Shown here piece after piece: positions 2,796 through 64,000 of a stretch of 64,000 bases of DNA. The position numbers and the translations under genes were made by a program. The notes below the pieces were generated by a model that saw only the letters and a program-made list of their open reading frames with translations, was not told the DNA's origin and did no database searches. The DNA lies in NCBI GenBank assembly GCA_963930775.1, contig OZ005694.1, forward strand, positions 186,001 to 250,000, written 5' to 3'. This DNA is from Cliona cf. orientalis. Lineage: Eukaryota; Porifera; Demospongiae; Clionaida; Clionaidae. Numbering within the stretch: position 1 is the stretch's first letter; every line of letters starts with the position of its first letter.

Positions 2796-3197
2796 CTTCT
2801 GGCCAGGTTGCTAACTTAACATCATACCACAACCCACTCCACAGGCCAGGCTACAATCTAGTGGACTAGAAAAGGTTCAGCTAATGTAAATGAAAAAAAG
2901 GCTGAAGGGAACTCACATGCAGTGATATTAATGAAGAATGGGAATCAGGTTCATTCACAGCACATGGACAAAGGCAGGAGAAGTAACTAGTTATTAGAAG
3001 CATAATTACTACAACTTAAGCTTGCATTCATTGTGTCAATACAATACAATACACGTTGATTTATTTCCCATTATGTCAAGGCTGAGCAATAGCTTCACAC
3101 AAATTATTACTGAGTGCTATAAAAATTTTTTTATGATGCCCAAATATGGACTGGTAGCCACAACTCTGATACAAAAATCTTTGCTGCTTTTTCAATT

Positions 3198-3683
3198 TTG
3201 GATTCAGGAAAGCTTCCATCCTCGCAGGAAGAAATGGTGCCCCAAAAGTATGGTGAAGCTCATGTAGATACACTGGAAAAGCACTATGGACGAGGAGATG
3301 GAGCTATTATTGACAGTGTGATCATCAAGGGAGAATGGTTCAAGCTAAGGCTGTACCTGAGCATGCACTGCAGAGCTTTATCGATGGCAGAAGTGCTAAA
3401 GCTACTAACTACAGACTCAACTCTTGAATTAATCTACCCAAACTTTGTCAAGTTAGCACAGGTGTGCTTAACACTTCCCATCAGCACAGCTGATTGCGAG
3501 AGGGCTTTTTCTACCATGCGTCGAACAAAAACCCGACTAAGAAGTGAGATGTGTAATTCAACACTTAATCACTGTATGAGAATTTCCATGGAGGGACCAC
3601 CACTGCAGCACTTTAACTTCGATGCTGCTGTTGATGCGTGGTCAAGACTCAAGAATAGACGTATATTAGACCGAATTTTATAG
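3198..3683 (+). pseudogene. hAT transposase C-terminal fragment
   Basis: Open frame of 161 codons whose second half matches the hAT-family dimerisation region: ADCERAFSTMRRTKTRLR at about residues 97-114, preceded by a hydrophobic LPIS stretch and followed by LNHCMRISMEGPP, then a short charged tail and a stop. In intact transposases (typically 500-700 residues, with a BED zinc finger and an RNase-H-like catalytic core) this region mediates multimer formation. Here the zinc finger and most of the catalytic core are missing, and the frame simply opens at 3198 without a convincing start. The piece sits where related copies (31186-31230) read straight through, so it is an insertion remnant. Similar regions occur in domesticated ZMYM or ZBED proteins, but nothing suggests domestication here. 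Confidence 0.8.
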
Positions 3684-18294: not shown

Positions 18295-18693
18295 TATTGA
18301 AAGGTCCACTTTTGACGTAATGTCAACTTAATTGGTTGTGCAATCATTCTTAATAATTATTGTTGAGTTGTGCAATACTTTAATATTATCTAGTGTTGAG
18401 TTGTGCAATACTCTAATCGTGTGAATGTGTAGTGTTATCTCTGTGAACCTGTCTGCTTTGTGTGAACCTGTCTGTGCGTGTTTTTGCAGATTTTCTTCTA
18501 GAATATTCTCTAAAAACCAGTTTGACCAGTTCTATTCTATATAAGTAAGTCAGTTGTGTTTCATTTTTACTGCTGACAGTGTTTAAGTTGTCAATTATAT
18601 AGTGTTTTATTGAGAGAAGTTGAAGCTTGTGTTGTGGCGAGATCTAACGCTGCGCAGGCTAGATACAGATTCTAGTTGTTAGAATTTTCAACA
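18295..18693 (+). repeat. copia left LTR
   Basis: Begins TATTG and ends CAACA, so the 5' dinucleotide is TA instead of the usual TG; both LTRs share this. An 18-bp motif (TGTTGAGTTGTGCAATAC) occurs twice near the start and TGTGAACCTGTCTG twice further on, arranged like promoter-upstream repeats. A TATATAAG box at 18538-18545 probably sets the transcription start. Confidence 0.93.
18538..18545 (+). promoter_or_regulatory. TATA box in copia LTR
   Basis: TATATAAG about 245 bp into the LTR, a reasonable place for the U3-R boundary. An identical copy exists in the right LTR. Confidence 0.6.
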
Positions 18694-18707
18694 GGTTATG
18701 GGCCCAG
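18694..18707 (+). promoter_or_regulatory. copia primer binding site (half-tRNA type)
   Basis: GGTTATGGGCCCAG starts at the base after the LTR. It is complementary to CTGGGCCCATAACC, the anticodon stem-loop region of eukaryotic initiator tRNA-Met, not to a tRNA 3' end. Drosophila copia is known to prime from a 5' half of this tRNA, so the same mechanism is inferred here. Confidence 0.85.
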
Positions 18708-18786
18708 GAACACTGAGGTCTTAGAGTTAGCAGTACAAGTCAAAGTTTAGTCTCTATTTTAGACTACTAGCTAACTAGTAGGTCGG

Positions 18787-20342
18787 ATGGCAGACGCAAA
18801 AACTGTTACGATTGTTCCTTTGAAGGGATCGAATTATCCAACTTGGAAATTCAATGTCGAATGGCCCTCATGAAGGAGGGTCTGTGGGGCATTGTTAATG
18901 AAACGGAAGAGGCCCCTAATGCTGAAACACAAGCCGATCAGTACGCAAAGTTCATTGCAAGGAGAGATCGAGCATTAGCTGTGATTGTTTTGTTGATCGA
19001 ACCGTCGTTGCTGTATTTGATTGGAGAACCGAAGAACCCCATCACTGTTTGGAAGAAGCTAGGAGATCATTTTCAGAAAAAGACGTGGGCTAACAAACTC
19101 GAGCTTCGACGCAAGTTGCATTCTCTACGATTGAAGGAGGGAGAGTCTGTTCAAGAGCATATCAAATCTTTAACGGAAATGTTTGAAGCTCTTTCTGTAG
19201 TCGGTGATCCTGTGTCGGAGGAGGATCGCGTTGTGCAGTTGCTGGCCAGTTTACCCGATTCTTTTAACATGCTGGTTACTGCCCTGGAAGCGAACGCAGT
19301 TGTACCAGATATGGACGTTGTTACGGAACGAATATTACACGAGGAGCGAAAAATGAAAAATCGAGATGACAGTGGGAACGGCGAAGTACAGACAAAAGCA
19401 ATGGCAGCTTATCGCCCCAGGAATCGTGCATCCATCAAGTGTTTCTACTGTGGAAAATTCGGTCATATCCAACGTTACTGTCGTATTCGAGCTGAAGATG
19501 AAAGCAAGGCTAAATCCGAAAAGAGTGATACGAAGCAGAAGGCTAATAAAGCTGCATGCAAGCTGCAAAACGAAGATAGCAGTTCATGTAGCGAAGGTGA
19601 TGCCCTAGTAACAAGTCATGCTCTATCAGCTAACGTAGCAAGTAATTGGATAGTGGACTCAGGAGCAACTTGTCACATGTGTAGTGATCCGAAAGTGTTT
19701 ACGAAACTCAGAAGTCTGGAGCCACCGCAGAAAGTAACTCTTGGAGATGGGCACGAGTTGAAAGCAATTGGACAAGGAATAGTGAAACTGACGATCAGCT
19801 TATCGAATGGGAAAACGAAAGAATGCAAGTTGAACGATGTGCTTTTCGTGCCAAATCTGTCGTACAATCTACTGAACGTATCTAAGGCTGCAGAAACAGG
19901 AAAAATCACGGAATTTGACGAAACTCAGTGTCAGATATTGGGAACGAATAAAAGGATCATTGCTGTCGCAAAAAGAACAGGTAGTCTCTACTATCTTGAC
20001 ACTAAGCCTAGTGAAACACATTTGGTAAATGCTGCTGAAACAAAATGTCAAGACTTGAAACAGAAAGCAAGCATCTGGCATCGACGTTTTGGACACCTTG
20101 GAATGCAGAACCTTCAGAAACTTACCAGAAACGAGATGGTTGACAATTTTGATTACAGCCCTTCGAATGCACCAGAATTCTGTGAGGCATGTGTTGGCGG
20201 TAAGCATCACAGAAGTCCTTTTCAAACGTGTGCAGGCATACAATCCAAAGAACCACTGGATCTAGTCCATAGTCACGGATGTGTGCGGCAAGCTGAACAC
20301 AAAGTCATTGGGTGGAGCAGAGTATTTCCTCACTTTTGTTGA
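18787..20342 (+). pseudogene. copia gag, protease and integrase N-terminus
   Basis: ATG at 18787 opens with MADAKTVTIVPLKGSNYPTW, typical of copia Gag. The frame is lost one base short near 18853 and continues from 18855 as CRMALMKEGLWG. Then follow the UBN2/Gag helical region, a CCHC zinc knuckle (CFYCGKFGHIQRYC, 19440-19481), the aspartic protease motif VDSGATCHMC (about 19653-19682) and the integrase zinc site HRRFGHLG...CEAC (about 20080-20190). The frame runs off course near 20275 and stops at 20342. Gag packages the RNA, protease matures the polyprotein. The two breaks are the only visible damage in this part. Confidence 0.92.
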
Positions 20343-21822
20343 TGACAAAACACGCTATGTTTGGGTCTACTTTTTGAAGCACAAAGATGAAGTCTTCGAT
20401 CGTTTCCTTGAATGGAAAGCACTAATTGAAAAATCTAGTGGTCTCAAGTTGAAAGCTATTCGCACAGATAATGGCGGAGAATATACATCAAAGAAATTTG
20501 AAAGCTATTTGAAGTCTGAAGGGATACGACATGAACGCACTCTGCCAAAAACACCAGAACAGAATGGTGTAGCCGAGAGACTGAACAGAACACTTGTTGA
20601 AATGGTACGTTCAATGCTGATTGATGCTAATTTGTCACACAAATTTTGGGCTGAAGCTCTATCTACAGCTGCATATTTGAAGAATCGAAGCCCAAGTAGA
20701 GGTCTTGAAGGAATCACTCCAGTTGAAGCATTGACAAAAAGGAAACCAAAAGTTGATCACCTGCGTATCTTTGGATGTGATGCTTATGTCCACATTCCAA
20801 AGGATGAAAGAAACAAGCTCGACTCAAAAGCAAAGAAGACCATTTTCATGGGATATGGAAATGAAACCAAAGGTTATCGACTATACGATCCACAACGAGG
20901 AAAGATTTTCTACAGTCGGGATGTCAAGTTTAATGAAACAAAGAGAGAGTTTGAGCAAGCGTCAACTGATATTGAGCAAGAGACGAAGCATCAAGTGATA
21001 CTAGACTTTGAAAGCAACGATGATGAAGAAATCGGTAGTGATCACCAGGAAGCACCCCCTATTAGCCCTGAAGAATCAACTCTTAGGAGATCGAGCAGAG
21101 AGAAACGACCACCAGAGTATTATGGAATAAGAGTAAATGTTGTTGATGAAAAGCCAAAGGAGCCTTTAACTGTAGATGATGCATTTACTAGTTCTGATCG
21201 AGAAAAATGGCAAGACGCGATGGAGAAAGAAATGAAATCCCTTAATGATAATGAAGTATGGGAGTTAGTTGAACTACCAGAGGGTAGGAAAGCCGTTGGA
21301 AGTAAATGGGTATACAAAGTGAAGACAGATGCTAATGGATCGATTGAACGATACAAAGCACGACTAGTAGCTCAAGGATTCTCGCAGAAGTATGGAACTG
21401 ACTACGATGAAACTTTTTGCCTAGTGGTCAGGCTTGAATCATTTCGCACTATAGTAGCACTAGCAGTGCAGTATGGTTTGAAACTTCACCAAGTTGATGT
21501 CACGACAGCATTCTTGAATGGCGAACTGAAGGAAGTGGTCTATATGAGACAGCCACAAGGTTTCATTGCTAAAGGTCAGGAACACTTGGTCTGTAAATTA
21601 AAGAAAAGCATTTATGGCCTAAAGCAATCCCCACGCTGCTGGAATACAGCACTGCACAATCAATTGACAATGATGGAATTTGTGCAGGCAGATAGTGACC
21701 CCTGCGTTTACAGAGCTTCAGGAGGAGAAGTATTCTTCATAGGAGTTTATGTTGATGACATCATTTTGGCTGGAGAGAGTGAGAAGAGAATGAAAGAAGT
21801 AGCTAAAGGATACTCTCACTAA
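20281..21822 (+). pseudogene. copia integrase core and reverse transcriptase
   Basis: Second frame of the same polyprotein, entered by a net +1 change near 20275. The integrase core shows FVDDKTRYVWVYFLK, RTDNGGEYTS and PEQNGVAERLNRTL, the D, D and E catalytic acids of the DDE fold. Next are an integrase C-terminal region with GYR.YDP and a variable linker rich in acidic residues. The copia reverse transcriptase follows: EVWELVELPEGRKAVGSKWV, LHQVDVTTAFLNGELKE and the catalytic YVDDIILAG (21748-21774). DETFCLVVR departs from the usual DETFSPVVR, a possible damaging change. The frame ends early at 21822 after another +1 step near 21805. Confidence 0.93.
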
Positions 21823-21841
21823 CAAATTTGACATCAAGGAT

Positions 21842-22726
21842 ATGGGAGAATTGCATTACTTTCTTGGTATGAAGATTCAGCTAGACAAGACTGGTGACGT
21901 CTGGATAGGTCAGCCAGCTTATGCAGAAAGCCTCCTGCAAAAGTTTGGAATGAGCGAGGCAAAACCTGTGAGCACACCCATTGATACTAGCATAAAATTT
22001 ATTCAAGCAACTGAAGACGAGAAATGCATTGATCAACAAGTCTATCAGTCAGCAATTGGAAGTCTCCTATATTTGTCTGTAGCTACAAGGCCAGACATCA
22101 CGTTTGCTGTAAGCAACATGGCAAGATTCTCCTCAAAGCCAACCACTCAGCACTGGACAGGTGTAAAACGCATCATGCGATATCTTCAAGGTACCATCAA
22201 TCATGGTATACTCTACACAAAGCTGAGCTCTAGAGAATGCATTGGATTCTCGGATGCAGACTGGGCCGGGGATCTAGACAACAGGAGATCAACGTCTGGA
22301 TACCTATTCCAGATAAGTGGAGGTCCAGTGAGCTGGAGGAGCAAGAAACAGTCATCAGTAGCCTTATCTACTGCTGAGGCAGAATATGTGGCTTTAGCAA
22401 GTTCAGCTCAAGAAGCAGTATGGATGAGACAACTCACAACTGAACTGGGCAGTGCTCCAACTGACGCAACTACCATTTTTGAAGATAACCAGTCAGCTAT
22501 TTCTATGGCAAGCAATCCTCAGTTTCATGGTCGTGCCAAACACATTTCAATTAAGTATCACTTCATCCGAGAGAAGGTCAGTGATGGAATGGTAAAATTG
22601 AGGTATTGCCCGACAAATGAAATGATTGCAGACATGCTAACTAAAGGTTTATCTAAAGAACAGTTTGCAAAACTTCGTCATATGGCAGGAATAGTCGCAA
22701 TGCCTGAACATTTCGTCTGCAAGTGA
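21842..22726 (+). pseudogene. copia reverse transcriptase end and RNase H
   Basis: Third frame of the polyprotein. GELHYFLGMKIQ (the end of the reverse transcriptase palm) comes first, then SAIGSLLYLSVATRPDITFA and the RNase H domain: GFSDADWAGDLDNRRSTSGY with the catalytic aspartates, SSVALSTAEAEYVALA with the glutamate, and EDNQSAISMASNP. It ends in KHISIKYHFIREK and ADMLTKGL, the normal copia C-terminus, with stop TGA at 22724. The region is complete for the family. RNase H removes the RNA strand during cDNA synthesis. Confidence 0.93.
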
Positions 22727-22733
22727 GGAGGAG
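22725..22733 (+). promoter_or_regulatory. copia polypurine tract
   Basis: GAGGAGGAG directly precedes the right LTR and overlaps the end of the stop codon; it is the expected plus-strand primer. Confidence 0.85.
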
Positions 22734-23132
22734 TATTGAAAGGTCCACTTTTGACGTAATGTCAACTTAATTGGTTGTGCAATCATTCTTAATAATTATT
22801 GTTGAGTTGTGCAATACTTTAATATTATCTAGTGTTGAGTTGTGCAATACTCTAATAGTGTGAATGTGTAGTGTTATCTCTGTGAACCTGTCTGCTTTGT
22901 GTGAACCTGTCTGTGCGTGTTTTTGCAGATTTTCTTCTAGAATATTCTCTAAAAACCAGTTTGACCAGTTCTATTCTATATAAGTAAGTCAGTTGTGTTT
23001 CATTTTTACTGCTGACAGTGTTTAAGTTGTCAATTATATAGTGTTTTATTGAGAGAAGTTGAAGCTTGTGTTGTGGCGAGATCTAACGCTGCGCAGGCTA
23101 GATACAGATTCTAGTTGTTAGAATTTTCAACA
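22734..23132 (+). repeat. copia right LTR
   Basis: 399 bp, same as the left LTR except one base (A at 22857 for C at 18418). Followed by TAATT (23133-23137), the right target duplication. Confidence 0.93.
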
Positions 23133-43716: not shown

Positions 43717-44510
43717 TTGTGTCTGTGTGTCTGTCACCCCTTACAATTACTGGGCTATATAAAAGCCCCTGACATGTATTCAGACACACCCTACAGCGAA
43801 GTAACAAAAGCTTATTGGGCGCAGTGGAAGAGCTTCGAGTTGAAGGATGGAGTCCTCTACCGCCTCTTGGAAACTCCTGCAGGAGATAGAGTCATGAAAC
43901 AGCTGATCCTCCCCAAGAAGCTGAGACCTAGTGTGCTACACCAACTCCATTGTTCCTCGACAGCTGGTCACCTTGGAGTCGACAAAACTCGAGGAAAAGT
44001 ACGGGAGCGATTCTATTGGGCACCATGCAGCAAAAATGTCGAAGCCTTCTGCAATAATTGCAACCTATGTGCTTCCAGGAGGGATCCAGCAAGGAAGATA
44101 CGAGCCCCACTAAGCCAGTACAACGTTGGAGCATCCATGGAGCAGCTGGCTATTGACATTCTCGAACCACTTCCGCAAAGCAAACAAGGCAACAAATACA
44201 TCTTGATCGCAGCCGACTACTTCATCAAGTGGGTGGAAGCCTATCCCATGGTGAACCAGGAGGCAGTCACAGTGGCTGAAGTTTTAATTCCAGAATTCAC
44301 CAGCAGATTCGAAGTCCCTCTGATCCTGCACTCTGACCAGGGACGGAATTTTGAGAGTGCTGTGTCTTCAGAGATGTGCTTTTAGAGATGTGCAAGCTGC
44401 GAGTCACTAAAATCAGGACCACTCACATCCACCCACAGTCTGACAGTATGGTGGAATGCTTTAACCGTACCCTTGAGGCTCAACTCTCAAAATTTGTTAA
44501 GGATCACCAA
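43717..44510 (+). pseudogene. Ty3/gypsy integrase fragment
   Basis: A 222-codon frame with a gypsy-type integrase: upstream ELKDGVLYRLL, a zinc site of the HHCC type (LHCSSTAGHLGVDKTRGK followed by FCNNCNLCASRR), then the catalytic core with LAIDILEPLP (first Asp) and LILHSDQGRNFES (second Asp). The frame then breaks at 44385. The third catalytic motif is still visible in another frame at about 44430-44490 (HPQSDSMVECFNRTLEAQLS) with the glutamate, and an in-frame stop follows. Gag, protease, reverse transcriptase and LTRs are not present. It is a dead fragment, cut at its 3' side by a Tc1/mariner piece. Confidence 0.88.
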
Positions 44511-44529
44511 TAAGACTGGGATCTCAAGG

Positions 44530-44926
44530 AATCTCTCGCAGGGGTGCTACTCACGTGATATTCACTGGAATTCTTACAGCAACTCTATGTCTATCTAGAA
44601 GAATAATCTCCTGTCATTCTTGGAGGCTGCATATTCAGATGGCCATGCAAGACAATGATCCCAAGCACACCAGTCAGTATGCTCAGTGGTGGTATGAAAA
44701 CAAGGAGATCAATTGGTGGAAAACACCAGCATCGAGCCCTGATCTTAACCCAATTGAGCATATGTGGCACACATTGAAGGAATTCCAGTGCATCAAGTAC
44801 AAACCTCGCAACCTACCTGAACTAAAACAAGGTATAAAAGCATTTTGGGAATCACTAACTCCCGTAATCTGTAGCAAAGTAATTCCCAAGGTTGTAGAAG
44901 TCAATGTAGGACCATTTGGTTATTAA
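44530..44926 (+). pseudogene. Tc1/mariner transposase C-terminal half
   Basis: From about 44530 the reading frames match a Tc1-type DDE transposase, with frame changes before 44650. The clean part shows MQDNDPKHTSQYAQWWYENK (second catalytic Asp) and TPASSPDLNPIEHMWHTLKE (the third acidic residue in NPIE), then a tail ending VNVGPFGY and TAA at 44924. The N-terminal helix-turn-helix DNA-binding half is missing and I found no terminal repeats. It abuts the gypsy fragment without a gap, so one element inserted into or recombined with the other. Confidence 0.88.
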
Positions 44927-45097: not shown

Positions 45098-45560
45098 TTA
45101 CTTAGTTTGTTTAATGTGCCTAATTAATGTGCCTAATCGGCATATCCATAAGTATTCGTGTCGTTTTAACCAGAGCTCTGTATTAGTTTCATGGGTCGGT
45201 GCCTGGGCTAAGATTTGGAATCTAATTTTCTTGTAGTCGTGGTTTTCTTGTTTGATGTGGTTGATCATAGGGCCTTCATTTAAGTGTTCGGATATTCTAT
45301 TTATGATGTCCCTGGTGGTGTAGCCTACATATTGTGCTCCATAACCAGGAGTTGTGCATATAATAAGGTATATAACATTTTTGGATTTACAGTTAAAGAA
45401 TTGCTTAGGGTGGGGTAGGTTTATTGGAACTTTGTGTTTAAGGGTTGTGCTTTCTGCAAAGCATCTTGTTATTAATAAGGGGCATATTGCACATGCATGA
45501 CAGCAGCGTTTAATGGGGTTTCTGACATTTTGTAGTGTATTGTTGAATATGGTGTGTGGG
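45098..45560 (-). pseudogene. Penelope-like GIY-YIG endonuclease domain
   Basis: An open minus-strand frame of about 150 codons, without its own start because it is the end of a longer protein. First a Cys-rich linker, IKRCCHACAICPLL, then CKSKNVIYLIIC (the GIY-like strand) and GAQYVGYTTRDIINRISEHL (the YIG-like strand with catalytic Arg and the following His), then ETNTELWLKRHEYLWICR with the metal-binding Glu, and stop TAA at 45100-45098. Upstream, at about 45630-45720, is the family's EPPVIAYRNNPSLRHKLV block, ended by a nearby stop. The domain itself looks undamaged and would nick target DNA. Confidence 0.88.
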
Positions 45561-45996
45561 TATCCGATAGGTAAAGATTGTGTGGTATGTTCGGGTTTAC
45601 TGGCATTTGGTTGTGTGTTTAGGTTCTGGTTGCTCGGACTAGTTTGTGTCGTAGGGATGGGTTATTTCTGTATGCTATTACTGGGGGTTCCGGGAAAATA
45701 TGGCTCAATTTTCAATTATCTTTGGATTAATTTCCAGTATTTTTTGAATGTTTGTTTAAGTCGTTGAGTGTCATCTCAAAGTTGTGTGACAAAGACCAAT
45801 TTCTTTTTATTGTTTTTCGGTTTTCCTTTGAATAAGATCTGGTGTCTTTGATTAAATTTGACGGCATTGATATGTGGCAAGATTTGTTTGTGTTCATATC
45901 CTCTTTATAAAAGTCTGTTTGTTAGTTTTTGTCTCATATTTCGGAACTCTCTCTCATCTGAATTCATTCTTAGGTATCTGTTGACTTCGCCTTTGC

Positions 45997-47660
45997 TTAT
46001 GGCGTTATTTGTGGTTGGGGGTGGCATGAGGATGCATGGATGTATAATTGTTTGTTGGTTGGTTTTATGTGGGTTCGTACGTTTAGGATCTGATTTCTGT
46101 CAAATCGGTCACCATTATACATGGTTATGTCCAGGAATGTGAGTTCTGTTTCACTTAATTCGTATGTGAATTTGATTGTGTGGTGTAATTGGTTGATTGT
46201 ATTCATGTATGTTGTGAATTCGGATGCAGATCCGGTCCAGATGACAAAAATGTCATCTATGAACCTTTTCCATAGCATTATGTGTGCATGGTTTGCCTAA
46301 TTCATTCAAATTTTCTTCTAATTTCCCATAAATAGGTTTGCATATGCTGGTGCCATTTTCGTACTCATTGCTGTTCCTTGGATTTGCAGGTAATATTTAT
46401 TGTTGAATTCAAATACATTATTTTTTAGGACTACCGTATTTCTTCTAAAAATTCGGCCCTTCTAATTATTCGGCACCCTTTACCGAATGATTGAATATAG
46501 TCTCTAATTTTTCGTCAAAGGTCGTCAAGCGTATATGCTATAAACGGGATTGGAATGCGCACGCAGACAGAATGTTGAATATTAACCTCTAAAAATTCGG
46601 CGAAGCTAAAGCAATATTATTATTTTCATGCCGAATTTTTAGAAGAAATACGGTATATCAATCAATTCAACTAAAACGTCTGGTATTGGTTGTTTGGGTC
46701 GTGTGTAATTATCTGGATTGTTTTGTAGATATATAGTATAATACACTTTGTTTACCATCACCGTGTGGAACGTTGATGTACAGTGAGGATATATCTATGG
46801 ATGCTAGTAAACAATTTGAGGGTATTTTTTTATGGTTTCTATTAATTTGAGGAATTCCGTTGAGTCTCTCAGATATGAAGGGAGGTTTTTTACATGTGGT
46901 TGTGGCCATCTATCGACAAATTGTGATATGGGTTCTGTGATACTGTTACAACTGGATACGATTGGTCTTATTCCCATGGGATTCTTGTGAATTTTTTTCA
47001 AGAAGTAAAGTCTGGATGTGCGTGTCTGTTTTGGAGGTTTGCAAAATTCAAACCATGCTTGTTTTAATAAACCATTATTTTTCAATGCTTTAAGTTTTTC
47101 TGTGATTAGTTCCTTTAGTTTGGGAGAGATGTCTATGTGTAATGGTTCGTATACGTTAAGATTGTTTAGGTGTAGCTACCATTGCATTACTAATGTATTC
47201 ATCTCTGTCTTCTACGACTATCGTTGAGCTTTTATCGGCTTTGTTTATTACTATACGAGGGTTATTGATTAGCTCTGAGAGCTAATCTCTCTTTTCTGGT
47301 TAGGGTTAGGTTGTCCTGCTTGTCTTGTTTATGTTTGTCTGTATTCAGCATTTCTACTCCAACTATATGTAGAAAAGTGTCTAGGGTACCATTGTCGGAC
47401 AACCTTTCTGGGTCATAAGTGTGATTACGTTTTGGTGCAAATGGATCTTTAGGTTCTGTATATTTCTTTTGTGGTCTATTGGTTGTTCTTAGTTCATATA
47501 TAGTCTTTAGTCTGTGCATGAAATTCCTAATGTCTGTATGTAGTGTCTGTATATGTAGGCTCTTAGGTTTGGGTATAAATTTTAGACCTTTTCTAAGAAC
47601 ATTTTTCTGGGAATCTGTCAGGGTTGTTTGTTTTGCTAATATGACTAAAGAGACATCATC
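45997..47660 (-). pseudogene. Penelope-like reverse transcriptase, interrupted
   Basis: Motifs in order on the minus strand: VLRKGLKFIPKPKSLHIQ; NPRIVINKADKSSTIVVEDR near 47240; RLYFLKKIHKNPMGIRPIVS; LLASIDISSLYINVPHGDG (motif A); then the MITE at 46432-46655; then [20 protein letters not shown] (motif B) and KRFIDDIFVIW (catalytic motif C, about 46255), followed by ELTFLDITMYNGDRF. Together these are the full telomerase-like reverse transcriptase of a Penelope-like element. Frame changes occur near 46300 and 46760, and around 47190. The protein is otherwise well preserved, so inactivation was fairly recent. Confidence 0.88.
46432..46655. mobile_element. TA-flanked MITE inserted in the Penelope-like element
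   Basis: 26-bp perfect inverted repeats (TACCGTATTTCTTCTAAAAA and six more bases at 46432-46457; complement at 46630-46655). Counting TA as target duplication, the body is 220 bp and begins CCGTATTTC. TA targets fit the Tc1/mariner group. It splits the reverse transcriptase between motifs A and B, and the coding sequence resumes on the other side. Confidence 0.88.
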
Positions 47661-48594
47661 CTTAGTGTCTGTAATGTGGTTAATTATAATGTTATTATCT
47701 GTATGAATGTTTTGGCACTCAATATTGTCATGGTTAGTATTGTGTGAAATGGTATTAGTTTGTATAAGTTTCTGTCTATGTCTTTTTTCTGTATATTGTT
47801 CGTTTCTTTAATGTCCGTCTTGAGGTGCGCCCTTCATTGGAAAGCCTTTCCGTTGGTGGGGCCCTTTCCTCTGCTCGATTGTTCTGGTTGTTGTTGATAC
47901 ATGTATGGGTACTGTCGTCGCTGTTCCAGTGGTCCGTTTTTTGAGTATGTATTAATGAGTCCAGTTAGGGCTTCCATAAAGTCTGTGGGTGGACTTTGTT
48001 GTAGAGATGAGGCTGTTTGGGTGTAGGAGATTATAGACATTTGAAAGGACTGCGAGAAACAAAAGGTTAATAATCATAATGAATGATTTGTGCATGTGTG
48101 TGGGGGTGACATGCTGAAATATTGTGAGGGAGCGAAATGGCTGCTGTTCCTTTATCTTGATCAGGAGCAGTATACATGTGCTGGTGGTATAGACCCTCAT
48201 TCTCTCTTCATTGGATCGGGCTATAGGTGAATGTGTCCATATCCTCACTTCATCTAGCCACATAGGACTATTGCAATATAAAATTATTATGATAATATTG
48301 CATGATATTATGAATTATTGTGTTAGCAGTAATAATGACATTGTGTGTGCAGGTATGTTATTCACTTCACTGTACTTGTTGAATAGTAATCATCATTATA
48401 GAATAGTCATGACTGTACTGTACAAAAACATGGAGGGTCAAATCTGGCCATGGTCTTCACAAAAATGGGCAAAGGTACAAAGTTGGAATGCAAAATACTT
48501 GACGTAATTGATTAAAGAACAAAGGCTTAAGGCGCTTACGTAGTGTTTACCGTTCAAAGGTCGTTTAGTTTGACAGGTGTTGATGCTCACTGAT

Positions 48595-57409: not shown

Positions 57410-59100
57410 AATAAACAGAGATATCTTGACTAATGACTAATGTACAAAGTTATTTCAACAGTGATAGATTACATAGCCAGAGTTTCATCCAGTGATAAAA
57501 CTTTGTGGTGGAAGCACGATAAATGAGTGGGCATATTCAGCACACCAAGTTCCTTGGGACGTATTTTAGGAGAATTTCTTTAATTCTTCCATATTGTTTC
57601 GGATAATTTTTGATCAAAAACAAATGCTAGTAATTTTATTTGGTGATTTACTGTGATATTATGACGCTTAATATAAAAGTCAAGTTTTTAGGGGGGGAAG
57701 CTTCCTCCCTGTCCCCCCCCCCCCCCCCCCCCCCCCCCCCGGATGAAACCCTGATAGCCTCGCCTCACTCGCAGCATTTTAATGTTTCACAATCAAAATG
57801 TTAAAGTAGTCTTGGGCTGAGGGAGATGCCAAATCTAACTATATGACCAAATATCTATGATAGCTGAAGCCTTGGATGGTACCCAAGCACCCTAGGAACA
57901 ACACCTGGATCCACCACTGTTATCACGAGTAAATAATGAGGAGGGGAAGAGAGTGTCGAACGCCTGTGCATTATGTTTTCGGCGAGTAACGTGACTTGCA
58001 GCAGTGCACACGTGACTAGCCCAAGGGGCTAAACACTTGATTTTTTCTTAGAACTGAGAAGAATAGAGGCATTTTTAGCTATATTCTTCATGAATGCTCA
58101 TTTATATTGTGATCTACTTGCACTTTTGGTTGAAATCGTGCTTGTATTAGCTTCCACTTGAGGCCATGCCCACAACATACTATTTGAATAGAGTGCTCTC
58201 ATTGGTCAATTTTGAATTCCTAGCAAGTGACTTTCTGAAAACATCTTATATAGAGTATATAGTGTGTTCGATACTTTCTTCCCCTCCTTGCTGACATACA
58301 CCCCCCCCCCCCACTCACACATACACTGATTATTAATGAATAAAAGAAAGTTGCTAGTAGTAATTGTGAGTATTTGCCAGCACACAGTCATCTACACTAT
58401 ACATATGGCAATTGGCAACTATTAAGCAGCTCAAACAGTGGTAATTAACATTTACAGAGGCTAGTATGAAGCAAAATTTCAGTTTACAAAGAATGTGCTA
58501 TATGGTGCACTGCTCTAGTAGTAAAATAAAAGCGAGAAACCTGCAGCAAGAATTCCTTGGGCAAACTGGCTCTAGGATTTGATACACATATCACAGTGGT
58601 ATACTTTGGACTGTTTCTAGTCCAGATAGGAATCAATTTAATCTCATATGCTCCATAACGTATATAAAATGTATGATTATTTATTTGTATTGGAGGAGCA
58701 TTATCCCACAACCTTAATTGAAAGGCTACGATGCATGTATTATAAAATAAGCCAGCACTTTGGTGTTTTTGTTACACTGTGCAAGGCTCTCTCAGAATTT
58801 TTGTGATGCTGGAGTCATTTGCACTGCCTGTGGAGTAGGTTGACTACCATCCTCTGAGCGATAGCTTAAGGTGGCCCATTGTGCATGACATCACCAAGAA
58901 GCAACTGTTTATTAGGCATTTGTGGTTAGAGAAATGTTTATTCTGCCTTAAGTTTGTGGTATAACCTCTCCTCATAGAGATACTGTGGCTAAGGTTATTG
59001 TGTGTACATGAAGAAGAACAGTGAAATTAATACCAAAAAACCAAGTGATGATAAATCAAGTCATTGAAGAATCATCCGTTTGAAATTCACTTTCCCTTTT
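57410..59100. other. Intron-like region, no gene seen
   Basis: Holds a 28-C tract at 57713-57740 preceded by a G-rich stretch, another C tract at about 58300-58312, and otherwise unremarkable AT-rich sequence. No exon meeting the ankyrin pattern. Confidence 0.5.
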
Positions 59101-59104
59101 TAAT

Positions 59105-59335
59105 CAATAATTTATTCATCGAAGCTTTTCGGCTAACAAGGTTAGCCTCATCAGGATGATAAAAATGAAGGAAAGAAAACAGAAATAAGGTAGAATACAT
59201 GGCTCAAAAAAGAGATAATGAGGGACAAGACAATAATAAACAGATACAATGAATGTAAAAACAATTAGGGCTACGTAGTCAACGTTAACTAGGTAGCCCT
59301 CACCTCATTAGCCGAAAAGCTTCAATGAATTGAGT
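59105..59335. mobile_element. Penelope- or retrozyme-like remnant with inverted ends
   Basis: The TTCATCGAAGCTTTTCGGCT segment of the ribozyme (59115-59134) recurs inverted at about 59308-59327 (AGCCGAAAAGCTTCAATGAA), where only the 3' half of the ribozyme remains. Between them is a near-palindrome (AGGGCTACGTAG ... GTAGCCCT, 59266-59299). No protein-coding part. Confidence 0.6.
59111..59165 (-). ncRNA. Hammerhead ribozyme (type I core)
   Basis: Minus strand, 5' to 3': stem I strand ATCATC (59160-59155), core CTGATGA, stem II GGCTAAC-CTT-GTTAGCC (7 bp, 3-nt loop), core GAA, stem III AAGCTT (three pairs, no loop), cleavage base C (59121), then stem I partner GATGA (59120-59116). All invariant hammerhead bases are present. 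The loopless palindromic stem III is typical of ribozymes in retroelements that act as dimers. Penelope-like elements commonly carry such motifs. Confidence 0.82.
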
Positions 59336-59723
59336 ATTGGTGACTAAAAGATAGTTGCTAGTAGAATCCTATAATAATAGCTTGTTTCTAACAGAAACAT
59401 GGTAGGCAGCAGATTTGGTGATAGACAACAGTAACCAACAGACACACACATACAGAGATAAAACAACTACTGATAAAACGTGTTCTCATTCTCTCACTAT
59501 TATTACTCACATAAAACCAAGAAATCATTTTTTGGCCATAACTCGGCTTATATACTATAGGAAGCGTTTTAGAGCCTGGCTCTTTGACCGTTGAACTCTA
59601 CAGTAAATTCTGCGTCGATCTATACCCAAAATGCAATTTTCATAAAAAATTTTCATAAAAAATTGCGAGTGGTCGGTTTTTCCATAGCGGGTCACAATTA
59701 CAGAATGGGTTGCCATTGTAAGT

Positions 59724-60715
59724 TACCAGACAATTACACTATTGAGAACTTACCTGCAGGCCCGGTGGAGTGGGGTCCATTTATAGTAATCTTTCACATT
59801 AACGTCTGCTTGATAGTTGTTCACAAGAAAAGTAGCAACTTCCATGCGTCCGTTCCTGGAGTATAATATATAGAACCAACGAGACACGCAATAATACTAC
59901 AGCAATAGGGATGACCAATGACTGGGAGTTATCAAGGCAATACTAAAGGAAAGGAGGAACATTGACCAAAATGTAACCTCTAGATATCACTGATCGGTGG
60001 TCTACGATCACAGGACTGAACTCACTGCACTGGAGTGGTGAACTGGACTCAGATTCGATATGAATGCATGTAACGATGCTATACTGCTTGTACGCATGGA
60101 CATGACTGGGATATCACCCTTTACTCAAGTGTGACAGTGAATACTCAAACTATATGTCCACATCCAAATCAATTTGTATTATGTATTATACAATTATATG
60201 AGTATTATGTTCAAGTTGCTCATTTAACTATTAAATTTTATGAGAGGAGGACGTATGTACAGACTCCACGTATGTACAGACTCCATGTATGTACATAAAT
60301 GGAAGCACCAGCTATGAATCATATTATGGAACCCATCCACTTCGTCTGGAGAACAGGGATTCCAGTATGATCTCAGAGTATGAAGTACATTATGGTAGAA
60401 TGCCCATGGGGACTAACCAGGGACACTATATTATATTAGTTAGACACTGTTTAGGAGGTTCCTACATGATTTAGAAGACTGAAGGGCTGCACAGAGAATC
60501 CCGAGCGCATGCATAATCATACAAAGTCATGCATGTGTGGAAACACTCACAAGAACACAGGCACATTTTAATAATATAATTGCATGGCATAAACACATGT
60601 ATACCGGGAAATATTCTTCATATCACTTGATGCATGCATAATAGTAACATCTTCCTAATGTGAATAGCCCGGAATGAACAACAGGTATAAAACAAGATAC
60701 AAAACAAAATCAATG
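59724..60715. repeat. 992-bp tandem duplication, unit 1
   Basis: Begins TACCAGACAATTAC and is followed head to tail by unit 2. I find no difference between the units. Contains one ankyrin exon, three GTATGTACAGACTCCA-like short repeats (60251-60295) and a 61-codon frame without recognisable homology. Confidence 0.9.
59754..59855 (-). CDS. Ankyrin-repeat exon C (102 nt)
   Basis: Acceptor TATACTCCAG and donor GTAAGTTC on the minus strand. In phase 2 it encodes NGRMEVATFLVNNYQADVNV and then KDYYKWTPLHRAC, one complete ankyrin repeat with the ADVN turn and TPLH motif. Same length and phase as exons A and B but quite different codons, so it is an older member. Lies just inside the left edge of the tandem duplication. 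Confidence 0.9.
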
Positions 60716-61707
60716 TACCAGACAATTACACTATTGAGAACTTACCTGCAGGCCCGGTGGAGTGGGGTCCATTTATAGTAATCTTTCACATTAACGTCTG
60801 CTTGATAGTTGTTCACAAGAAAAGTAGCAACTTCCATGCGTCCGTTCCTGGAGTATAATATATAGAACCAACGAGACACGCAATAATACTACAGCAATAG
60901 GGATGACCAATGACTGGGAGTTATCAAGGCAATACTAAAGGAAAGGAGGAACATTGACCAAAATGTAACCTCTAGATATCACTGATCGGTGGTCTACGAT
61001 CACAGGACTGAACTCACTGCACTGGAGTGGTGAACTGGACTCAGATTCGATATGAATGCATGTAACGATGCTATACTGCTTGTACGCATGGACATGACTG
61101 GGATATCACCCTTTACTCAAGTGTGACAGTGAATACTCAAACTATATGTCCACATCCAAATCAATTTGTATTATGTATTATACAATTATATGAGTATTAT
61201 GTTCAAGTTGCTCATTTAACTATTAAATTTTATGAGAGGAGGACGTATGTACAGACTCCACGTATGTACAGACTCCATGTATGTACATAAATGGAAGCAC
61301 CAGCTATGAATCATATTATGGAACCCATCCACTTCGTCTGGAGAACAGGGATTCCAGTATGATCTCAGAGTATGAAGTACATTATGGTAGAATGCCCATG
61401 GGGACTAACCAGGGACACTATATTATATTAGTTAGACACTGTTTAGGAGGTTCCTACATGATTTAGAAGACTGAAGGGCTGCACAGAGAATCCCGAGCGC
61501 ATGCATAATCATACAAAGTCATGCATGTGTGGAAACACTCACAAGAACACAGGCACATTTTAATAATATAATTGCATGGCATAAACACATGTATACCGGG
61601 AAATATTCTTCATATCACTTGATGCATGCATAATAGTAACATCTTCCTAATGTGAATAGCCCGGAATGAACAACAGGTATAAAACAAGATACAAAACAAA
61701 ATCAATG
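60716..61707. repeat. 992-bp tandem duplication, unit 2
   Basis: Same sequence as 59724-60715 at an offset of exactly 992. Its right end continues into the TGTAACGGATAAAGGGTC sequence that also follows the related repeat at 55321, so this end is the original junction and the unit 1/unit 2 join is the new one. Confidence 0.9.
60746..60847 (-). CDS. Ankyrin-repeat exon D (duplicate of exon C)
   Basis: Identical to exon C at an offset of 992, with the same splice sites. If the duplication is real, the encoded protein has the same repeat twice in a row with the frame kept, since the exon is phase-symmetric. Confidence 0.75.
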
Positions 61708-64000
61708 TAACGGATAAAGGGTCAACTGACATTAATCTTTTGTACTTGCATGTTGATCCCAGCCACTCCATGACAAGAAAATGCCATCCATAAGTATGCA
61801 CTCATCAACCACACCCACTCTACTGGCATGACTGCCCATGCTCAAGCTCAATGTAGGAAAGGGTCATGAAATCACAATAACAGCTCCGTTGCAATACTAT
61901 GCTACAGTGGCTACAGAACGTGCGGGGTATGTGCTGCAGTGGAGCAGATTGGAAATGGCTGGGGATTATCCATCCAGCACCCACTGTCAGTATGCAGCAA
62001 AGTTTGAATCCAACTGGTCAGTGCAGTTGCATAATTTATAACTACATGTACAGCATGCAGGACTTTATTGGGGGGGGGGGGGGGGGGGCACCATCACCCC
62101 CCCCCCCCCAAGTGACTAGTATTATCACTCACATAAAGCCAAGAAATCATCATAACATGTCATGATTGACAGTAGCAATGACAATGAGATAGATACTAAA
62201 GTCATTTCCAAGTATCTGCTGAGTAATGCTATTATGTACATGAGCATGGCCCCAGACCCCCTAGAGATAGTGTGCTTAGGCACATGGAAAAATGATCATA
62301 CCTTCACCCCCTTGTTCTCACACTTGCTTGGTTTGCTCCCCATCCACCCCCCCCCCCCCCCCCCCCCTTTGGAAACCTTCTGGCATATCTAACAATGATG
62401 TATCCCATTATACAACTGTGCCAGAGCTACAGTCTCCTTGGTGTGTGTGAATTTCTCATCACAAGCCCAAGCATTCTGCCCAAGTTTATCACTGAGAGAG
62501 TGACATCGCTATTGCGATGTATGAATTGTGAATCACATGAAACGAGAGAGAAATAAGGCTCCAAAAGCAGCAAGAGCAAGTCTAGATAGAATTTGTTGCC
62601 AATCAGAGTCAGCTCAACAGCACGAGGAGCAGCTATGAAGGCGAATAATAAGTAGTTAGAGCTAGACGTGCTGCTCATTCAGACTGTTGAATAGAGGCAG
62701 CTATTGACTGCTGGCATAGTAGCTATGGGTGCAAGTAGTAAGACAGCTATGACGGTCATGGTCCACTTGGATCCGTGTCAATGCTTCATGCAGCTGTATA
62801 GTCTTCATATTTTTCTATGGGCTCCTGCTCAGAGCCTTTTTAGGCCACTGATACTTGTTTCCCATTCCCTCGAGAACATGTGAGCGGGTGGTCATTATTC
62901 ATTATGTAACCACTAAACCTTGTTCCACTTCCTGTGGGTTACAAGGAACATGACTAGCTGGCTTGCTCAGTGAAGCAATGCATAATAAATTTTGTGAGGC
63001 AGCTACCAAATAAGCATGCAAGTGGGCGATGGGAAAATAATGATTCAGAATCAAGTTACAGTGGCCTTAGCTTAGGCTCGCCCATAACACACCCTGCATG
63101 ACAGTAGCACACACTCAATACATCCAGCAACAAAAATTAGTCTTTCCACAATAAGTACAAAAACGTCGTTAGACCGTTTCTGATTTCATTCCTGTTTCCC
63201 ATTCCGGGTTTACTACAATCTGACCAGCCTATGTATTAATACCGGTTAAACTCGGGTGACTATTAAATTTATTCGTGGCCAGGCTGCAGCCAACTATTAG
63301 TCACAAGCCGGCATGGTGTAGTGGTGTCATACCCTCGTAGTCGGCTACAGTATTGATACGGTGAATAGGTGATTCATCTCAAACTGCCATCTCCCGATGC
63401 ACATACATCAACAACTTGAATGTCAAAATCCTGAGTGGTAGAAATGTCAGCAGAGCAGGTCTCCAGGCGATGTTTCTCTCTGACCTCTACGTTTGATCAG
63501 CATCGCATACTGACCACAATGCTATTCTAGAGAGTGGCATAGGAATCGGGGGGCTTTGGGGAGGGGGAGGGGGAGGGGGGACTCTCCAGTTGAATAATAA
63601 TATGTATACCCTATTTTACAGTGAGGGCTAATTTATACTGGTATACATGTACTGCTCTAGAGATATGCACTGCGCTAGAGAGCTCTAGATTGATGTCTAG
63701 CTATCACAATACAAAGTAGTCTCCGAAAGAATCACCCCCGTGTGCTCAGAATGCTCAATCTATGCCATAACAAGTATAAAGATAGAGTCCAAATTTTCAC
63801 ATATGTCCCCAGACTCCTAGATGATAGCCCACAATGATCCCTGACTGTACCATTTCTCAGCTCCGGGCCCTACCCTAAAATATCTTCTTACATCACTGCA
63901 TGTGCACCTGCAAACACACATACTAGTATGCATAATGCACACATAGTCATGCATACTAGCTGTTGGTAAGCTACTCTCTTTTCTACTGCTGACTGCATGC
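61708..64000. other. Repeats and unassigned sequence
   Basis: 61708-62090 and 62400-62490 match 55320-55800, which lacks the piece between. 62244-62260 carries the CCCCAGACCCC hAT-end motif. From 62500 on I see no gene; 63548-63580 is a G-rich GGGGGA array. Confidence 0.5.
62070..62109. repeat. G19-C13 hairpin-forming tract
   Basis: Nineteen G (62070-62088) and, eight bases later, thirteen C (62097-62109), able to fold into a GC-only hairpin. The related copy at 55676 has only six G. Confidence 0.85.

Follow-up and report, generated by a model that had tools for sequence, protein, structure and literature searches.

The 64-kb window (the whole stretch of Cliona cf. orientalis DNA that was analysed, C6:186001-250000) carries on its minus strand, at 59111..59165, a hammerhead ribozyme motif of the minimal type I kind, identified by pattern scan and from the sequence itself. 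Read 5' to 3' on that strand, it consists of the stem I 5' strand TCATC (59159-59155), the core CTGATGA (59154-59148), a 7-bp stem II made of GGCTAAC, a CTT loop and GTTAGCC (59147-59131), the GAA that precedes stem III (59130-59128), the palindromic and loopless stem III AAGCTT (59127-59122), C17 as the predicted cleavage position (59121) and the stem I 3' strand GATGA (59120-59116). All of these parts were read from the sequence and recovered by the scan, and stem II covaries between families. An earlier note on this DNA had described the same order of conserved bases, with the 7-bp stem II, the loopless AAGCTT and a stem I partner, and we could confirm each of these elements: C3U4G5A6-G8A9, G12A13A14, A15.1-U16.1 and H17 all occur in order, the open end is stem I, and the cut is predicted between 59121 and 59120 of the minus strand, where the earlier note had placed it. 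Its GAA-AAGCTT-H segment has no loop letters at all, the arrangement that defines minimal hammerheads of Penelope-like elements (PLEs), in which helix III is loopless or nearly absent. Judged by its sequence, we take it to be a true hammerhead motif and one more member of an already described type, residing in a decayed copy.

The motif lies in the left arm of a head-to-head pair. This arm (59101..59283, minus strand) is an inverted pseudo-LTR (pLTR) of a family A PLE and ends at the centre of an imperfect palindrome, GGGCTACGTAGTCAAC/GTTAACTAGGTAGCCC, which forms the junction (59268..59299, ends set by eye). The right arm (59284..59335, plus strand, outer end approximate) is a pLTR from which an internal deletion has taken the ribozyme's 5' half, and the remaining 3' half, TTAGCC-GAA-AAGCTT-C, lies at about 59308-59330. 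The GAAAAGCTTC of this half copy occupies 59314-59323 and begins 193 bp away from its minus-strand counterpart at 59121-59130, matching the inverted half copy about 190 bp away that had been remarked on before. A similarly truncated right arm is found at the paralogous locus L041. Compared with two paralogous loci (C1:36.15 Mb and C6:1.217 Mb), the segment 58327-59106 of the window is inverted, and this truncates the left arm at its outer end. The window copy therefore reads as an RT-less head-to-head pLTR pair with a truncated right arm, disrupted by inversion and apparently a dead-end derivative. In the stretches compared, the window shares about 3.2 kb of surroundings with the C1 locus and about 2.2 kb with the C6 locus, and the ribozyme element sits within a larger repeat common to all three. 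The segment 59529-62116, which holds a 1,002-bp tandem repeat (59724-60725 and 60716-61717, 99.7% identity), is unmatched in these two loci over the stretches compared.

A GIY-YIG-bearing Penelope-type fragment lies 11-14 kb to the left of the motif (45098..47807, minus strand). It comprises a GIY-YIG frame (45098-45661), Penelope-type RT pieces (45833-47001) and a further frame with no Pfam match (47262-47807), all on the minus strand. Its RT pieces are 25-39% identical to the RT of the ribozyme lineage, and neither the generic scan nor our own search model places a hammerhead beside it. With a distinct RT and no adjoining ribozyme, we rejected the possibility that the ribozyme belongs to this element. 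The observation that no coding Penelope is attached to the motif, and that one occurs 11 kb to the left, thus holds in the sense that the copy has no adjacent RT frame of the lineage to which it belongs and that the left element is of a different lineage. The suggestion of a separate non-autonomous family stands in part: the copy is RT-less and distinct from the left Penelope, but it is a pLTR of a lineage that has coding relatives. Elsewhere in the window, Copia-like polyprotein frames (recognised by eye) occupy 18335-22857 with the same 33-bp tandem repeat on either side, and fragments with hAT C-terminal dimerisation and DDE_3 transposase domains occur at 3123-3683 and 44501-44926.

To be called by the generic scan, a site needed the core, a stem II of at least 4 bp, a stem I of at least 4 bp and a stem III of at least 2 bp; on both strands of the 64 kb, this definition was matched once, at 59111-59165, compared with no match in 20 first-order Markov controls. 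In genome-wide searches, the counts of which are lower bounds throughout, the pattern for an exact stem II of family A, CTGATGAGGCTAAC..GTTAGCCGAA, occurred in at least 12 places and the pattern CTGATGAN{6,36}GAAAAGCTTC in at least 52, compared with none for either reversed pattern. A broader pattern that allowed any 4-nt centre of stem III gave at least 492 places versus 217 in controls and was dropped as too noisy. The Rfam search that had been proposed as a check came back empty: no family reached its gathering score over the whole 64-kb window, and no hammerhead model matched 58500-59800 at E<=10. The Rfam hammerhead models probably expect a looped stem III. The model built within this analysis assigns 77.8 bits to the window motif, a value that is not independent because the training set included this site, and 16 bits to the half copy.

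In thermodynamic RNA folding, the 80-nt fold of the motif outperforms shuffled sequences (z -2.21), with 4 of 200 shuffles equalling it, and in this isolated fold stem II has a probability of about 0.99 and stem I of only about 0.13; the corresponding values for the 3' pLTR of the locus L073 are about 0.4 and 0. For the AAGCUU self-duplex, the computed energy is -4.3 kcal/mol. When the half-copy antisense is added to the fold, the probability of stem II drops to about 0, as it also does in the head-to-head copies L004, L014 and L007, all of these probabilities being thermodynamic predictions with folding during transcription outside their reach. The half copy is thus predicted to sequester the ribozyme in cis, and cleavage in cis appears unlikely because the half-copy antisense precedes the ribozyme in the minus-strand transcript and is predicted to pair with it.

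Sorted by eye, the 52 places found with CTGATGAN{6,36}GAAAAGCTTC fall into four stem II families, with 13 in family A (GGCTAAC/GTTAGCC, the window's own), 24 in family B (GTGCA/TGCAC), 9 in family C (GTCACAT/ATGTGAC) and 2 in family D (GTGCT/AGCAC, broken in one copy), while 4 have no clear stem II. For the catalogue, which takes in near-matches from the loci examined, a set of 52 rows was reduced by three look-alikes (C1:32478756, C3:480032 and C7:6278684) to 49, representing 36 distinct sequences, and the addition of 12 places from two genome pattern lists brought the total to 61 motifs in the 216.8-Mb genome (26 A, 24 B, 9 C and 2 D). Core letters are intact in 53 of the 61, and a core base is altered in the other 8. 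The nine family C ribozymes of the catalogue are all on the minus strand of the contigs that carry them, possibly by chance.

Comparison of the 36 distinct sequences revealed that stem II is kept by compensatory change, as is characteristic of type I hammerheads: five of its seven pairs have changed on both sides, so that the compensatory changes on which the earlier reading had been made to depend are present among the genomic copies. The covariation score of stem II, 0.335, compares with a shuffled mean of 0.131 and was reached by none of 500 shuffles, and control alignments with slid partners scored 0.006-0.059. Two simpler counts in the same 36 sequences do not exceed shuffles, namely the number of pairs with both-sided change (reached by 257 of 500) and the number of further pair types (reached by 448 of 500). 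Stem I is nearly without covariation, with both-sided change in one of five pairs and there in a single cell. The invariance of the core and of AAGCTT in this alignment is partly built in because the sequences had been gathered by their conserved core, and for this reason we examined arms aligned by similarity, 33 family A arms from the best 30 of 88 matching loci. In these, 2.9% of the cells in the columns of the core and stem III differ from the majority, compared with 9.2% in the remaining pLTR, and only 0.4% of random 15-column sets are as conserved. Minimal hammerheads of a second type, in which stem III is ACGT (CTGATGAAGGTCCACGGACCGAAACGTTTC and one similar form), came from a search that returned at least 15 places versus 1 in the control; 13 of the 15 share a common stem II and 2 resemble chance. 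The ACGT-type places at L085, L086 and nine more are partly arranged in outward pairs too, and one such pair (L085) flanks a frame with a GIY-YIG-like Penelope C-terminal end, recognised by eye and unscored.

The catalogued copies also reveal the kind of element that carries the ribozyme. Family B copies adjoin open RT frames of 639 aa (L069, on C6) and 638 aa (L073, on C3). At C6:5427476-5430674, two minus-strand ribozymes of the same sense, 3,198 nt apart, surround an ORF1 and the 639-aa RT frame, both oriented like the ribozymes, in a copy that looks complete. Its ORF1 measures 393 aa from stop to stop, has its first methionine about 120 nt beyond the predicted cut and is, by eye, serine- and arginine-rich near its end. 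The 638-aa frame has no RT match of its own in Pfam; it is 32% identical over 557 aa to the frame of L083, which scores RVT_1. Assignment to the PLE-type RTs rests on homology to the GIY-YIG-bearing and RVT_1-scoring frames of this genome and applies to the relatives only, the window copy being RT-less. No GIY-YIG domain was found by Pfam in the L073 RT frame or in the C6 ORF1, a result that a very divergent domain could escape. ORF1-like remnants lie beside copies of the other three families, with 42% identity over 274 aa at the family A copy L043 (whose ribozyme has G12 changed), 64-75% identity at the family C copy L016 and 45% identity, on the opposite strand, at the family D copy L024. 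The location of the hammerhead in the pLTR thus holds for the lineage, and the association with a retroelement that the earlier note had proposed is borne out by these coding relatives. Taken together, the sequences identify the hammerheads as putative pLTR ribozymes of a Penelope-like retrotransposon.

The pLTRs of this lineage occur in both direct and inverted arrangement. Among the 61 motifs, 13 neighbour pairs lie within 10 kb of each other, of which 9 are outward (head-to-head), 4 direct and none inward. Only one of the 13 is a direct pair closer than 1 kb (508 nt), so that same-sense ribozymes 150-400 nt apart, which the earlier note had proposed to look for, are not the rule. Head-to-head arms join at the palindrome GGGCTACCTAGTCAAC/GTTGACTAGGTAGCCC; in L007 and L050 the inverted arm runs precisely to the middle of this palindrome, and the entire element is a perfect or near-perfect palindrome in L004 and L014. 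A pLTR palindrome array of about seven copies at about 50-bp spacing lies near a family B ribozyme copy (C5:9654978-9655320).

Ten head-to-head pairs were tested for target-site duplications (L004, L007, L011, L014, L017, L025, L035, L048, L050 and L066, a set that lies apart from the window copy and L041), with element ends set by hand or by script, and five of them carry duplications of 12-49 bp. With hand-set ends these measure 46 bp (L004), 49 bp (L014), 20 bp (L007) and 12 bp (L048), and a script test added 25 bp at L025; with script-set ends the first four become 44, 46, 15 and 6 bp. Shuffled flanks give duplications of up to 8 bp, so that 6 bp is at control level and the case of L048 is weak, since automatic ends cut its 12 bp to 6 bp. 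The remaining five pairs of the ten have no target-site duplication, and in one of them, L035, none is expected because its left flank lies inside another element copy. The five copies with duplications are 420-593 bp long. We conclude that at least the pairs with clear duplications were inserted as paired units.

These findings make it very probable that a Penelope-like retrotransposon carries the motif in its pLTR as a type I hammerhead of the minimal kind, and that the window copy is a dead-end derivative. Since AAGCUU is loopless, stem III would be expected only between two ribozymes; on this point we agree with the earlier note, which had called so short a stem unstable alone and had expected cleavage as a dimer, since a loopless 6-nt palindrome would need two copies. 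Judging from the title of a 2017 paper by Lunse, Weinberg and Breaker, PLE hammerheads reportedly cleave RNA as dimers. In the family B direct copy, a transcript spanning pLTR-ORF1-RT-pLTR would carry two ribozymes 3,198 nt apart, which could pair via AAGCUU into a six-base-pair stem III and so form a double hammerhead. This pairing might take place within one RNA, from one pLTR to the other, or in trans. Cleavage after C17 would then shorten read-through transcripts to the length of one unit. Such a role in processing is uncertain because, according to passages of the report on the Anolis element PAc, cleavage there needed protein and cleavage mutants were without effect on insertion in vitro (PMC11167929).

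A more specific version, which we offer as a rather unlikely extension, is that in this endonuclease-less interspersed PLE the AAGCUU stem makes cutting depend on two same-sense pLTRs, as in the 3,198-nt unit, while head-to-head pairs stay uncut and are mobilised as palindromes with unusually long duplications. Such pairs would escape cleavage because one strand lacks two same-sense ribozymes. It is also improbable that the ribozyme is a passenger, cleavage being irrelevant and the RT recognising AAGCTT and the inverted structure, as DNA or as RNA, so that these are retained. At L084 (C1:20102000-20102800), where two pLTRs enclose an RT remnant head-to-head, both arms lack CTGATGA and retain GAAAAGCTT; this would fit the idea, as would the insertion of cleavage-dead PAc ribozymes in vitro described in parts of that study (PMC11167929). 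However, the core-less pair is a single locus, and a recognition site of another type leaves unexplained both the compensated stem II and the conserved core in copies found by similarity.

We also asked how the data compare with the non-LTR retrozymes of metazoans, short non-coding repeats in tandem whose spread involves self-cleaved circular RNA. Short RT-less copies do exist, such as the five of 420-593 bp with duplications, and type I hammerheads occur in published retrozymes (PMC7229834), but the latter have canonical ribozymes with loop interactions (PMC7229834), whereas the sponge motif sits in the pLTRs of an RT-coding element. Moreover, its short copies are head-to-head rather than tandem, and the single direct pair within 1 kb among the 13, at 508 nt, falls outside a tandem spacing of 150-450 bp. 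We rejected the retrozyme on this arrangement of copies and regard it as very improbable. Finally, the idea that an inverted repeat rich in A+T looks like a hammerhead by accident, with which the missing Rfam match and the weak stem I would agree, is scarcely credible against the absence of any match in the 20 Markov controls, the at least 12 and at least 52 genomic places versus none for reversed patterns, and the covariation of stem II.

Several features of this lineage have counterparts among known systems. PLE hammerheads without helix III have been described in portions of two publications (PMC6155905; PMC7761336), the second of which, in the part considered here, calls the role of minimal hammerheads in PLEs unknown (PMC7761336). 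They have in common with the sponge motif the type I core, stems I and II, the lack of a looped helix III, the pLTR position and the presumed dimers; as far as their descriptions go, nothing essential differs. Satellite hammerheads of newt and axolotl likewise have a stem III too weak for the monomer, so that a dimer is expected, but in the axolotl hammerhead, unlike the sponge motif, the stem is a single pair closed by a palindromic tetraloop, and the copies are repeated in tandem (PMC7229834). Excerpts of the work on Penelope in Adineta vaga describe inverted pLTRs with palindromes, explained there by self-priming (PMC3846280). Shared with the sponge lineage are the head-to-head pLTRs, the junction palindrome, the direct pLTRs around an ORF and some duplications; the A. 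vaga element, however, has a GIY-YIG domain and duplications of 8-10 bp or none in the portions of that paper compared, whereas in the sponge lineage an endonuclease is unrecognised and duplications reach 46-49 bp (PMC3846280). The main text of that paper does not contain the word "hammerhead" (PMC3846280). Two-ORF PLEs without endonuclease are also on record in sections of the literature on Terminons (PMC6431247), and these endonuclease-deficient elements share with the sponge lineage the two ORFs, the absence of a recognised endonuclease and a hammerhead in the terminal repeat. The sponge copies differ in having target-site duplications (five of ten pairs), and among 84 of their loci searched for TTAGGG- or TTAGG-type runs none has any.

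The combination of an interspersed element without a recognised endonuclease, head-to-head copies, duplications of up to 49 bp and a single conserved palindrome as stem III in all four stem II families did not turn up in our literature search, which covered search listings and passages of the sources cited. We do not claim a first description of this combination. Both helix-III-less PLE hammerheads and inverted palindromic pLTRs are already in print. The window itself offers an ordinary result, a decayed retrotransposon end. Across the genome, one lineage is represented by four stem II families, a direct-pLTR copy that looks complete, head-to-head derivatives (some with duplications) and one core-less locus, a natural set of variants in which the need of cleavage for mobility could be studied.
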